From Oscillospiraceae bacterium (GTDB lineage Bacteria; Bacillota; Clostridia; Oscillospirales; CAG-272): 32,570 nt of DNA. The DNA lies in the NCBI GenBank assembly GCA_015063455.1, contig SVUC01000011.1:1-32570 (forward strand), read 5' to 3'. Made by a program: the position numbers and the translations under genes. The notes below the pieces were generated by a model. It did no database searches, had not been told where the DNA came from, and was given only the letters and a program-made list of their open reading frames with translations. Shown piece after piece: positions 14,019-21,579 of the stretch. Each line of letters starts with the position of its first letter. The stretch's first letter is position 1.

Positions 14019-14888
14019 TCATTTTTGTGAGTCGCCTGTACGATAATAACTCGCCCTCATACATCGTCTGCATAGTTCTTCTGCACATTTGTGCCCCGAG
14101 AATCCATCATAGATCCTGCGCGCGCGGGGGGATGAGAGAATTATATCAAGATCTTCGTTGAAAAGATTGCCCAGTGCGAGATCTCCGTTGCGATCAAGAC
14201 AGCACGGCACAACAGTTCCGTCGCAGAGCACACCGATCTGATCGCGGAGTGCGTAACAGAATCCGCTGTCAGAGAGGCTCTCTCCCTGCATATCGGGCCA
14301 ATCGAACTTTTCACCCCATTCAAGAAATACTTTGTCGTGCAGTTTGTAACCTGTCCGCACCTTTTGCCATTCATCAGAAAACACAGTGTGCATTGCCTCG
14401 AGAATCTGATCGTTCTTTTCGTGAAGTGCACCGTCGGCACGTCCGTCAAGGTTCCATAGCCTTAGTGCAACAATGATACCGCGCTCAGCGGCATTTTTTG
14501 CGAAATTGAGACATCCGTCGATGTATTCGGAAAATGACATTCCGGGCGGATTTGCTTCAAAGGCGTGAAGGGAAATATTTACCTTGTACGGTGCCGCGTC
14601 GAGCAGAGAAGCGCCTTTTGTTCTGAGCAGAGTACCGTTTGTGGTAATAATGGACTTTAACCCTTTCTCAGAGGCTGCCGAAATAAATCGGGGAAGAAGA
14701 GGATGTGCTGTTGGCTCGCCCATAAGATGATAATACAGAAATTCTGCCCAAGAGCCGAGTTTGTTTATAAGGAGCAAAAATTCATCTTCATTCAGCGCTC
14801 GGCTGACTCTGTCAGTTCCGGGACAGAATGCACAGTTCAGATTACAGCGATTAGTTATCTCAAGATAAACTTTACGGTGAATTGCCAT
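14019..14888 (-). CDS. Radical SAM/SPASM domain protein
   Basis: This is a predicted radical S-adenosylmethionine enzyme of 289 residues. The 4Fe-4S motif CNLNCAFC (C15, C19, C22) lies near the N-terminus. Radical SAM core features follow: YHLMGEPTAHP, ITTNGT and VNISLHAF. A C-terminal SPASM-like region carries further cysteines in GFCYALRDQ, VLCDGTVVPCCLDRNGDLALGN and CAEELCRRC. SPASM proteins mature peptides or serve as anaerobic sulfatase activases and related enzymes. No peptide substrate gene is visible here, so the substrate is unknown. The track starts at 14930, but ATG 14888 has AAAGGAG five bases upstream and is preferred. Confidence 0.88.
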   Translation of the reverse strand: MAIHRKVYLEITNRCNLNCAFCPGTDRVSRALNEDEFLLLINKLGSWAEFLYYHLMGEPTAHPLLPRFISAASEKGLKSIITTNGTLLRTKGASLLDAAPYKVNISLHAFEANPPGMSFSEYIDGCLNFAKNAAERGIIVALRLWNLDGRADGALHEKNDQILEAMHTVFSDEWQKVRTGYKLHDKVFLEWGEKFDWPDMQGESLSDSGFCYALRDQIGVLCDGTVVPCCLDRNGDLALGNLFNEDLDIILSSPRARRIYDGFSGHKCAEELCRRCMRASYYRTGDSQK

Positions 14889-14942
14889 GGCAGCTCCTTT
14901 CTCAAGCATTTTTCTCAGACGGAAGGTCAATTGCGTAATAAA

Positions 14943-17119: not shown

Positions 17120-17162
17120 GCCGAGACGGTATCACAGAAGATACTGCCTCGGCTTATTTTAT
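17120..17162. terminator. Bidirectional terminator between the transketolase and NAT-fusion genes
   Basis: GCCGAGACGGTATC pairs with GATACTGCCTCGGC, with one mismatch and one G-U pair, around ACAGAA. T-rich sequence follows on the plus strand, and TTTTTTG follows on the minus strand. Confidence 0.88.
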
Positions 17163-18442
17163 TTTTCGTCTTCTTTTTCTTGCAAAATCCTGTCAAGGAT
17201 CTCAGCGGCAGAAGAGACAATATCAGCGCACGGTCTCTTTTTGTAGTAAGCCGCATCTCTCGCGGCAGGCGTCGGATCGGTACTCGACTCGATTCCCGCG
17301 AGAAGCTCGCGGCAGATGATCGAACCGTTTGCTTCTCTGAATTCTGCGGCAATTCTTTGTATCAGCGCGTAATGCGCGGCTTTTGCATCCTTGTCTCGCA
17401 CATCGGAGTAGCCCCAAAGAGCTCCCGCGACAGCGGCTGCACCTGACATTGCTCCGCATACCTCACGAAGCCGTCCGAGCCCTCCGCCGAACGAAGATAT
17501 CATTTTAAGGGATTCTTCCCTTGAGTATCCTGTGACGTCCTCAAACGAGCAGAAGACCGCCTGAGCGCAGTTGTAACCGTCGAGGAAATACTTGCGTGCG
17601 AGGGATGCGTGGTCGATCTTTTTCTGGTTTTTCGTTCCTTCCTCGTATCTCTTCACGCTGAGATTTTCAAAGTAGGGGAGTCCAAAGTATTTTCCGTAAG
17701 CTTCCCGAACTTCATCCTCGGTCAGATATTTTTCAAAAACATTGTCTCCGTCAAAAATGTGCAGAATGTTCCCGTCAAGAGTAATTCTTCCTGTGTCATT
17801 TTTGATCGAGAACATCTCGGTACGAGTAAACGGAGAATCTTTTGAATTCTCACACCAGAACGAAGGCATAATATAGTCTTTGTTGAGCTGCTTTTCCTCG
17901 GTGAATGAGTAGAAACGTCTCCATTCCCCCTTGTGCAGATCTGAGATTATCCATCCGAAAAATTCAGGTTCGTATTCAACTCGGTAGATCTCCCCGAACT
18001 GCTCCGATGTGTGACCATCCTCAAGCTTCAGCGGAAGGCGGAATGCAGACTGTCCGATACCGGCATCGCAGATCCACTTGCATCCTTCATTATCTGTAAC
18101 AACGCAGATCCTGTGACGTCTGACGGGAATTTCAGCCTCGCCTCTGAGAAAACGAGCCATATATTCCACAACTTCAAAGCCGAGGGAGCGGTAAAGCTCT
18201 GCGAGAAAGCCGTTGATCTCAAAACAGTAACCGCCGCGATGATCTGTCACGATTTTTTCGTAGAGATCGCCATAATCGAGGGAAAGGGGCTTGTGTCTGA
18301 TTATATCGAGATTTTCGTACGGTACATTTTTCTGAAAACCGTACTGTATGCTTGCGATGAGGGATGCGTTTTTGTCAAGCGAATCGGAATATTCAAGACC
18401 GATACGCTCAAATGTTTTTTTGATCTGTTCGATGCTGTACAT
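17159..18442 (-). CDS. Arylamine N-acetyltransferase fused to a C_GCAxxG_C_C domain
   Basis: The protein has 427 residues and two parts. Residues 1 to about 262 form an arylamine N-acetyltransferase of usual size. The catalytic triad is in place: C73 in RGGYCFE, H110 in VRRHRICVV and D126 in WICDAGIG. Such enzymes acetylate arylamines or hydrazines from acetyl-CoA. After a charged linker, residues about 275-425 match the C_GCAxxG_C_C family of probable redox proteins. Its cysteines are C292 (YNCAQAV), C329 (VCGAMSGA), C377 (IICREL) and C405 (RPCADIV). The reading frame is continuous across the junction. The start has GAGGA seven bases upstream. The gene lies 25 nt after the SGNH hydrolase gene, probably in one operon. 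Neither the substrate nor the role of the fusion is known. Confidence 0.88.
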   Translation of the reverse strand: MYSIEQIKKTFERIGLEYSDSLDKNASLIASIQYGFQKNVPYENLDIIRHKPLSLDYGDLYEKIVTDHRGGYCFEINGFLAELYRSLGFEVVEYMARFLRGEAEIPVRRHRICVVTDNEGCKWICDAGIGQSAFRLPLKLEDGHTSEQFGEIYRVEYEPEFFGWIISDLHKGEWRRFYSFTEEKQLNKDYIMPSFWCENSKDSPFTRTEMFSIKNDTGRITLDGNILHIFDGDNVFEKYLTEDEVREAYGKYFGLPYFENLSVKRYEEGTKNQKKIDHASLARKYFLDGYNCAQAVFCSFEDVTGYSREESLKMISSFGGGLGRLREVCGAMSGAAAVAGALWGYSDVRDKDAKAAHYALIQRIAAEFREANGSIICRELLAGIESSTDPTPAARDAAYYKKRPCADIVSSAAEILDRILQEKEDEK

Positions 18443-18467
18443 GATTTTTCCTCACATAGATGAGATT

Positions 18468-19520
18468 TTAATGCAGTATTGCGCTTATTCGCACTGCATA
18501 TCCGTTTGATTGTTCTTCTTTTGTGTCGGATATGCGGATATTTACGGTGTGTTTACCCGGGGTGAGTCCTTCGACCATAGTTCTTCCGTTTACACGATTG
18601 AATGAGAGACAGTAGTGGTCCCAAGTCTTCAGTTCAAATTCTTTTCCGCCGTCAACGGAGATCAGAGCGTTTCCTGAATCTGCGGCGAGTATGTAATAGA
18701 GACCGAATCTCTCTCCTTCAAACTCGAATGAGAAGCTGTCGCCCGGATTCTTTCCCTCGACAAACTCGCTGCAGTGATTGCAGATAGAGGCAGCCACATA
18801 TTCAAATCCGTTTGAATTGTAACTCGGCATATCTGAACAAAGAGTCATAACCGCATCGTCGTAGGTAGCGGGAGCGATCTTCTCGGAAATCGGGTGAATT
18901 ATCGGATCGGAGGAGATATTTTCCGCAAATTTTGCAAGGAAAGACTTGATCGTATCAAAATAGATCTTGTGTCCGATCTCATTGGGGTGAGTGAAGTCGG
19001 TGGTGTATTTTTTATAATCTCCGCCGTTTTTCAGAACTGCCGCGTATTGAACCGCTCCAACATCAATGGAGGGAATACCGTAGTGATAACACGCTGTCAG
19101 TGCCGCTGTGCGTGGGAAGTTGTCTGCACCGGTTTCAATGCTGTCAGCGACAAATTTTGAAGATGTAACAACGCAGACAATATCCGTCATGGGATCGTGC
19201 TTCAGTATCTTGCGGTATATCGTTTCAATAGTACAAAGAACTTTATGATATACGGATCCTCGGTCATTTACGCAGAATTCCACAAACACAAGATCGGGAT
19301 TGTGTGAGAGCAGATCGCGTTCACAGCGATACACACCGAGATCCGAGCCTGTTCCGCCGATTGCGGCGTTTACTTCAGTGATCTCAGCCTCGGGATAAGT
19401 TTCGCGGAACCAATCTGTCAGAAGTACACGATATCCCGGAGCTTCCGTAATAGACCCCCCAAAGTATCCGATCGTAAGCTTTTTGTCATTTTTGAGTTTG
19501 TTGAAGGTGTTGTCGAGCAT
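18468..19520 (-). CDS. SGNH/GDSL-family hydrolase
   Basis: The 350-residue protein has the SGNH blocks in order. The nucleophile is S23 in GYFGGSITE, the oxyanion Gly lies in IGGTGSD (about 54-60), Asn85 lies in EFCVNDRG, and the Asp/His pair D175/H178 is in DFTHPNEIGH. A beta-rich C-terminal region of about 130 residues follows and may bind carbohydrate. No signal peptide is seen, so it may be a cytoplasmic esterase or deacetylase acting on sugar or acyl esters. The start has AAGGAG seven bases upstream. It follows fbp by 85 bp and precedes the NAT-fusion gene by 25 bp. Confidence 0.88.
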   Translation of the reverse strand: MLDNTFNKLKNDKKLTIGYFGGSITEAPGYRVLLTDWFRETYPEAEITEVNAAIGGTGSDLGVYRCERDLLSHNPDLVFVEFCVNDRGSVYHKVLCTIETIYRKILKHDPMTDIVCVVTSSKFVADSIETGADNFPRTAALTACYHYGIPSIDVGAVQYAAVLKNGGDYKKYTTDFTHPNEIGHKIYFDTIKSFLAKFAENISSDPIIHPISEKIAPATYDDAVMTLCSDMPSYNSNGFEYVAASICNHCSEFVEGKNPGDSFSFEFEGERFGLYYILAADSGNALISVDGGKEFELKTWDHYCLSFNRVNGRTMVEGLTPGKHTVNIRISDTKEEQSNGYAVRISAILH

Positions 19521-19605: not shown

Positions 19606-21579
19606 TCAGTTGAATTTTTCGAGTATCGTTCCGTCACGGTAAGCTTCAAGCAGATGACGGAGGTCTGTTATTCTGAGAAGAAGCTCCTCTCCAAAGTCTA
19701 TATCGGCAATGTTGACACGCTTTTCCATTTTTACAACCACGCTGACGTTTGGAGTTATGTTTGCATCGTGACCGTCGTATGGCTTGTGCTCAGCGAGTCT
19801 GAGGCTGTGTGAGTCGTATATGAGCGTGTACCCTGCGATTCCTGTTTTGACTCTGTAAGCCTTTGAGATGCCTCCGTCGATGACGAAAAGCTTTCCGTTT
19901 GCTTTGATCGGACTCTCTCCGTCTCTGATAAGAACGGGAACGTGACCGTTGATGATGTGACCGTTTTTCGTGCAAAGACCAAATTCCTGAAGGATCATAT
20001 CACATATATCCTCACGGTTGTTGAGGTGATAGTACGGCTCATAGTGCTCGGATGAAATAATACCTGCATCTTTGCCGATCAAGGTTCTCTCGAAGAATGC
20101 CATTTTATCTTTTCCGTAGAGAGGGGAGTCTTTTCCGCACCAAAGATACCACATATAGTCAGCAGCTTCGCGCTGTTCATCTGAACCGTACGGAGCAAAA
20201 TATGCTCGATTGACAGCCTTGCCGATTCTGTCGAGGAGGGCTTTTCCGTGGTATGTTTTTTCTTCATCTCCTTTGAAGGGGAGCGTGATCTCACGGAAAG
20301 TACCATCTTCATTCATCGGGATACAGCCGTGGTAAAGGAGATTTCCGTTTGCACACTTGTACATTGATCCGTGAGCGTAAAGGAATTTGATGTGATTGTT
20401 GAGCCGTGTGCTGTGGTGGAATGACGCGTGAAGAATACGGACAAGCTCACTTTCCTCAGGGCTGAGAGTGAGAGGTGAATCGGGGTCAACAGTCGGGAAG
20501 TTTGTGTCCCTCAACTTGTACTCAACTCCGTCGATCTCGCAAACACCTCGTCTGAAATCGGTTTTCTCAAACAGACGTCTTGAATCGAGGTTATATTCGG
20601 GATGTGCCGCCATGAGCTGACCTTCAAGCTTGAACTGAATTACAGCGATAGCCTTGTGCATTTTCGCGGTCAGAGAATGTTCTACGCTGTCATAAAGAAC
20701 ATCGTCAAGAGTATGAGGATAGAAATATGTACACGGATCATCACGGTATACCTCTGTTGCGAAGATCGACAGCGGACGGAGATTCAAACCGTATCCGTCC
20801 TCGAGAATATCGTAGCTGTTGTATCCGAGCGCAATTCTGATAACATTTGCGATCAGCGCTGAGTTGCCGGACGCCGCACCCATCCAGGAGATGTCGTGGT
20901 TCCCCCACTGAATATCTATATGGTCAAACGTCATCAGCTCGTCAATGATACGGTCGGCGCGGGGGCCTCTGTCAAAAATATCACCGATTATGTGAAGTCT
21001 GTCTATCGTGAGACTTCTTATCAGGGAACATACCGCAATGATGAATTCATCCGCGATTCCCGTTTCAAGTATTGACGAGATGATCTCGGAATAATAATAC
21101 TCACGGTTGATGTCATCCGTTACATTGAGAAGCTCATCGAGAATGTAGTCGAAGCTTTTCGGCATTTTTTTGCGGACTTCAGCGCGCGTATATTTTGCGG
21201 AGACCGATTCACACACAAGGATAAGACGGTATATCGTAATACGTCTCCACTCGTCGTTCATTTCACCTGACTGAATGAGAGATTTTATCTCAGTCTCGGG
21301 ATAGTATATTAAAAGTGCAAGAGCGCTGCGTTCATTTGAAGAAATACTTTTTTCAAAAATCAGATCGATCTTTGCTTTTATCATACCCGACGCGCTTCTG
21401 ATAAGTCTGAGGAACGAGTCATATTCTCCGTGAAGATCACTGAAGAAATATTCCGTACCCTTCGGCAGACTTCTGAGTGCTGAGAGATTTATCATCTCCG
21501 ACGCAACACTTTCAATATTCGGATAATCGCGGGAGAGAAGCTCAAGATATCTGAGATCAGGTTTTTGATAATTGACCAT
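19606..21579 (-). CDS. fbp: Fructose-1,6-bisphosphatase, class III
   Basis: This is the 657-residue class III enzyme of Bacillota. It converts fructose-1,6-bisphosphate to fructose-6-phosphate in gluconeogenesis. The metallophosphoesterase-type metal motifs are FFSDLHGEYDSF (~47-58), IIGDIFDRGPRADRIID and IQWGNHDISWMGAASGN. Family stretches such as INGHVPV and FVIDGGISKAY lie in the C-terminal half. Length matches the family. The ribosome binding site is weak (GGATGG). A promoter with 17-bp spacing lies about 40 bp upstream. The metal-transport genes upstream are separated by a strong terminator. Confidence 0.96.
   Translation of the reverse strand: MVNYQKPDLRYLELLSRDYPNIESVASEMINLSALRSLPKGTEYFFSDLHGEYDSFLRLIRSASGMIKAKIDLIFEKSISSNERSALALLIYYPETEIKSLIQSGEMNDEWRRITIYRLILVCESVSAKYTRAEVRKKMPKSFDYILDELLNVTDDINREYYYSEIISSILETGIADEFIIAVCSLIRSLTIDRLHIIGDIFDRGPRADRIIDELMTFDHIDIQWGNHDISWMGAASGNSALIANVIRIALGYNSYDILEDGYGLNLRPLSIFATEVYRDDPCTYFYPHTLDDVLYDSVEHSLTAKMHKAIAVIQFKLEGQLMAAHPEYNLDSRRLFEKTDFRRGVCEIDGVEYKLRDTNFPTVDPDSPLTLSPEESELVRILHASFHHSTRLNNHIKFLYAHGSMYKCANGNLLYHGCIPMNEDGTFREITLPFKGDEEKTYHGKALLDRIGKAVNRAYFAPYGSDEQREAADYMWYLWCGKDSPLYGKDKMAFFERTLIGKDAGIISSEHYEPYYHLNNREDICDMILQEFGLCTKNGHIINGHVPVLIRDGESPIKANGKLFVIDGGISKAYRVKTGIAGYTLIYDSHSLRLAEHKPYDGHDANITPNVSVVVKMEKRVNIADIDFGEELLLRITDLRHLLEAYRDGTILEKFN

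Follow-up and report, generated by a model that had tools for sequence, protein, structure and literature searches.

A probable recent fusion of neighbouring arylamine N-acetyltransferase and C_GCAxxG_C_C genes in one Oscillospiraceae species

Arylamine N-acetyltransferases (NATs), with solved structures such as 1e2t, 2bsz, and 4nv7, share a fold, an RGGYCFE motif, and a Cys-His-Asp triad. All of these are also found in the NAT described here, but unlike known NATs, it bears a C-terminal C_GCAxxG_C_C (CGC) domain. CGC proteins (PF09719 / TIGR01909) form a widespread, uncharacterised family with a putative function. They are usually free proteins of about 150 aa, whereas the copy in the window, the whole stretch of 32,570 nucleotides that was analysed, is the C-terminal part of a NAT. 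The described protein closest in fold to the CGC domain is split-Soret cytochrome c (1h21), which has an iron centre and in which two of the four CGC cysteines are aligned in sequence. However, split-Soret cytochrome c has haems, a longer chain, and no acyltransferase. A literature search found no paper on the NAT-CGC combination.

The initial annotation described an in-frame fusion of these two families with both halves intact, and this description holds in each of its parts. The fused gene is one uninterrupted ORF of 427 aa (Table 1), and reading of the ORF (17159-18442) revealed neither a stop codon nor a frameshift in the linker region, where a frameshift had been named as a possible flaw. 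Both families score above their cut-offs: PF00797 reaches 161 bits against a gathering score of 22.8, PF09719 reaches 114 against 27 bits, and the NCBIfam model TIGR01909 reaches 75 against 47.4 bits. The triad C73-H110-D126 is invariant in 39 NATs and aligns with that of the Salmonella enzyme 1e2t. Cys292, Cys329, Cys377, and Cys405 are invariant in 30 CGC domains, and the motif CGAMSG is present. A selenocysteine form of the CGC domain was considered and rejected, as cysteine occupies all four positions in the fused protein. Neither half has any other match in the same genome, which belongs to an uncultured Clostridia-like bacterium and is a fragmented draft of 154 contigs, about 81% complete and with no second assembly.

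Table 1. Positions of the fused gene, its domains and key residues, and the flanking features in the window
Feature	Position	Strand	Basis
Hairpin and T run just past the fused stop codon	17120..17153	minus	-25.4 kcal/mol, z -7.4
Fused gene NAT-CGC	17159..18442	minus	Single ORF, ATG start, 427 aa
CGC domain PF09719, residues 290-419	17186..17575	minus	Pfam, E=6e-33
CGC Cys405	17228-17230	minus	Alignment
CGC Cys377	17312-17314	minus	Alignment
CGC Cys329	17456-17458	minus	Alignment
CGC Cys292	17567-17569	minus	Alignment
Linker GTKNQKKI, residues about 269-276 (the join)	17615..17638	minus	DNA alignment with three congeners; lower model confidence
NAT domain PF00797, residues 31-255	17678..18352	minus	Pfam, E=5e-47
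NAT catalytic D126	18065-18067	minus	Alignment
NAT catalytic H110	18113-18115	minus	Alignment
NAT catalytic C73	18224-18226	minus	Alignment
GAGG, likely ribosome-binding site of the fused gene	18450..18453	minus	Read from sequence
GDSL-type hydrolase gene, upstream, 25 bases from the fused gene	18468..19520	minus	Pfam
Firmicute-type fructose-1,6-bisphosphatase (FBPase) gene	19606..21579	minus	Pfam

The hairpin downstream of the fused gene is likely to be a terminator, perhaps a bidirectional one common to the convergent transketolase genes, although it is absent from the list of a simple terminator scan. Upstream, the order with the GDSL-type hydrolase gene is also seen in a congener (L021), and several species of the genus have the FBPase gene upstream of their NAT. 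Elsewhere in the window, a Radical SAM/SPASM protein is encoded at 14019-14930; none of its 25 listed NCBIfam matches reaches the cut-off.

The AlphaFold model of the full protein has a pLDDT of 93 and a pTM of 0.73, with confident domains and an uncertain relative placement. When compared with the PDB, the NAT model matches 1e2t with an E-value of 1.6e-19, and 40 NAT or amide-synthase chains are found at E < 0.001. Its score for the NCBIfam equivalog N-hydroxyarylamine O-acetyltransferase is far below the cut-off (108 vs 493 bits). Judging from its family and intact triad, the NAT half most likely acts as an ordinary NAT. It would transfer the acetyl group from acetyl-CoA to Cys73 and then to an amine or hydrazine by ping-pong acyl transfer.

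For the CGC model, the best structure match is 1h21 (probability 1.00, TM 0.61, E 0.0099). The same protein is the best, though weak, match in a single-sequence search (E 0.04), in which Cys292 and Cys329 fall on cysteines. A sequence-profile search of the CGC domain against the PDB gave chance matches only. The CGC half most likely works like its free relatives, as a small helical module in which the four cysteines would either hold an Fe-S or comparable iron centre or perform thiol redox chemistry.

The genomic neighbourhood of other CGC genes is consistent with such a role. Among 74 loci, which are related and were picked by similarity to the query so that the counts are not independent, the CGC gene directly follows a gene for an Mrp/ApbC-type (Mrp/NUBPL) Fe-S carrier P-loop ATPase (PF10609) in nine. 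The genes often overlap at these loci (L023, L033, L052, L055, L079, L089, L105, L112, and L117). Four of the Mrp/NUBPL genes were confirmed by Pfam and the remainder were assigned by similarity. At eight of the 74 loci (L002, L004, L083, L095, L097, L108, L111, and L121), the CGC gene directly precedes or overlaps an NrdG2 radical-SAM activase gene; one of these was confirmed by NCBIfam and the remainder by similarity.

CGC domains are also fused to other proteins. A fusion with a NifX-like Nitro_FeMo-Co domain (PF02579) is present in three genomes (L118:1123-1980, L123:514-1335, and L124:553-1374; Pfam was run on the first two). Single cases were found of a Lactamase_B (metallo-beta-lactamase fold) domain with CGC (L122:670-1887), a HAD hydrolase with CGC (L056:1474-2595), and CGC with NUDIX (L003:2309-3187). 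The variety of these partners marks CGC as a promiscuous domain. Taken together, fold, neighbours, and other fusions point to an Fe-S or metal-linked module with a tendency to fuse to neighbours, and CGC is more likely to be an Fe-S or redox module than an acetylation partner. The Fe-S assignment draws on three things: the weak match in sequence (E 0.04), a modest similarity in fold, and the neighbouring genes. The initial annotation had also suggested that acetylation is mechanistically linked to a redox-active cysteine cluster. This suggestion is unsupported: since CGC joins or adjoins many unrelated partners, its fusion to NAT is hardly informative on arylamine chemistry.

A whole-protein search found no second NAT-CGC fusion among about 1,300 genomes (1,308 as counted by the search tool), made up of 98 relatives and of 394, 25, 391, and 399 genomes from the order, genus, class, and phylum, respectively; a fusion whose NAT half has diverged much further could escape this query. 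No plasmid record gave a match spanning over 80% of the query. A pattern scan of GTDB contigs returned no fused case, and its best match, L021, is unfused. A conserved NAT-CGC fusion family was therefore rejected, as no second species among the genomes searched carries the fusion. The initial annotation had taken absence from all related genomes as a sign against the fusion. The fusion itself is indeed absent from the related genomes searched, but three congeners have the two genes adjacent and overlapping.

In these congeners, namely G022 (public MAG RGIG7288, L021/L002), G012 (L004), and G015 (L003), NAT and CGC are separate ORFs in the same order and at the same locus. The NAT stop and CGC start overlap as ATGA in L002 and L004 and as ATGCTTGA in L003. 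The two ORFs of a pair are in different frames, whereas the window gene has one frame, and in G015 the CGC is fused to the NUDIX domain instead. The halves of the fused gene are 60-70% identical to the unfused NAT and CGC of the congeners. Since the frame of CGC relative to NAT varies among congeners, the junction is labile.

In the NAT tree, the window NAT and the three CGC-adjoining NATs form a clade (100/99) within the NAT clade of the genus (100/99). In the CGC tree, the four CGC domains likewise cluster, with weaker support (85/93). Several other NATs of the genus adjoin the same FBPase gene and have no CGC after them, and most other congeners with such a NAT have no adjoining CGC gene. 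In one species (L061), a CGC gene directly follows the FBPase gene.

Alignment with the congeners delimits the join. Homology of the NAT tail holds in frame 0 to about residue 268 (LPYFENLSVKRYEE vs LPYYEGLNIRRYTEE), and CGC homology resumes past the 8-residue linker (IDHA vs LDHA in L003 and TDHA in L004). The window gene has lost both the NAT stop and the start codon of CGC. In it, AAG stands roughly at the ATG of L003, and the gap exceeds that of L003 by 11 bases. These losses and the longer gap imply that several changes were needed, not one.

We consider it likely that the gene arose when two neighbouring genes fused, recently and in this species only, and that the halves have retained their separate functions. 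The restriction of the fusion to the window species and the overlapping pair in its congeners both lead to this reading, in which the neighbours were translationally coupled. In much of the genus, the NAT gene is located downstream of the FBPase gene. In one sub-clade, the CGC gene directly follows NAT, and the end of the one overlaps the start codon of the other. In the window species, both signals were probably erased by small indels and substitutions in this overlap, leaving one frame. The join would ensure equal amounts and a common location for the two halves, and it would require no chemical coupling. However, the fusion is known from one genome only, a fragmented draft. The same circumstance favours an assembly or sequencing error, by which there would truly be two genes, a NAT that stops near residue 258-262 and a CGC that begins with GTG263. 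When all single-base changes were simulated, it was mainly one inserted or deleted base in codons about 241-262, together with the GTG start, that gave two plausible adjoining genes. Against this, these codons align to L003 in frame 0 without an indel, and in its present frame the tail NLSVKRYEE is homologous to the NAT tails of relatives. Errors confined to the linker restore no relative-like pair, because the stop and ATG are both gone. From these alignments, a single-base error appears less parsimonious than a fusion, and we give this explanation a low probability.

That NAT and CGC lie together in four species might alternatively reflect a genuine functional link, in which CGC gates or serves NAT. 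It could, for example, protect Cys73 as a redox or Fe-S switch, or supply arylamines to NAT by reducing nitro or azo compounds. The three nearest congeners all have the two genes side by side, the fourth species has them fused, both halves are intact, and NAT uses a reactive cysteine. However, NAT adjoins only four of the 74 CGC loci, the pair was not seen outside the sub-clade, and most NATs of other congeners are without a CGC neighbour. CGC also joins unrelated enzymes, and the domain orientation in the model is uncertain (pTM 0.73). Functional coupling is therefore unlikely in our estimation. More doubtful still is a functioning enzyme of two domains whose Fe-S or thiol redox module would regulate or feed NAT, as in redox-switched acetylation in an anaerobe. 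The confinement of the fusion to one species would also fit a decaying or non-functional by-product. This is very improbable, as the triad and four cysteines are intact at 60-70% identity to relatives, and a likely ribosome-binding site and a terminator-like hairpin are present. For CGC, where dS could be estimated (that of NAT is saturated), dN is 0.32-0.37 against a dS of 1.8-2.7, values that mostly reflect the time before the fusion.

The join thus probably reflects gene adjacency, not new enzyme chemistry, and as an enzyme the product of the fused gene is probably ordinary. The locus provides a snapshot of gene fusion, with overlapping, coupled genes in sister species and a single frame in the window species. 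It is also a warning that a single fusion is a poor guide to function. What the comparison suggests for the CGC family, a by-product of the analysis, is more useful than the fusion itself: the Mrp-type carriers, NrdG2, the NifX-like fusion, and the split-Soret cytochrome c fold provide a testable idea for PF09719, namely that it may be an iron-sulfur linked module.
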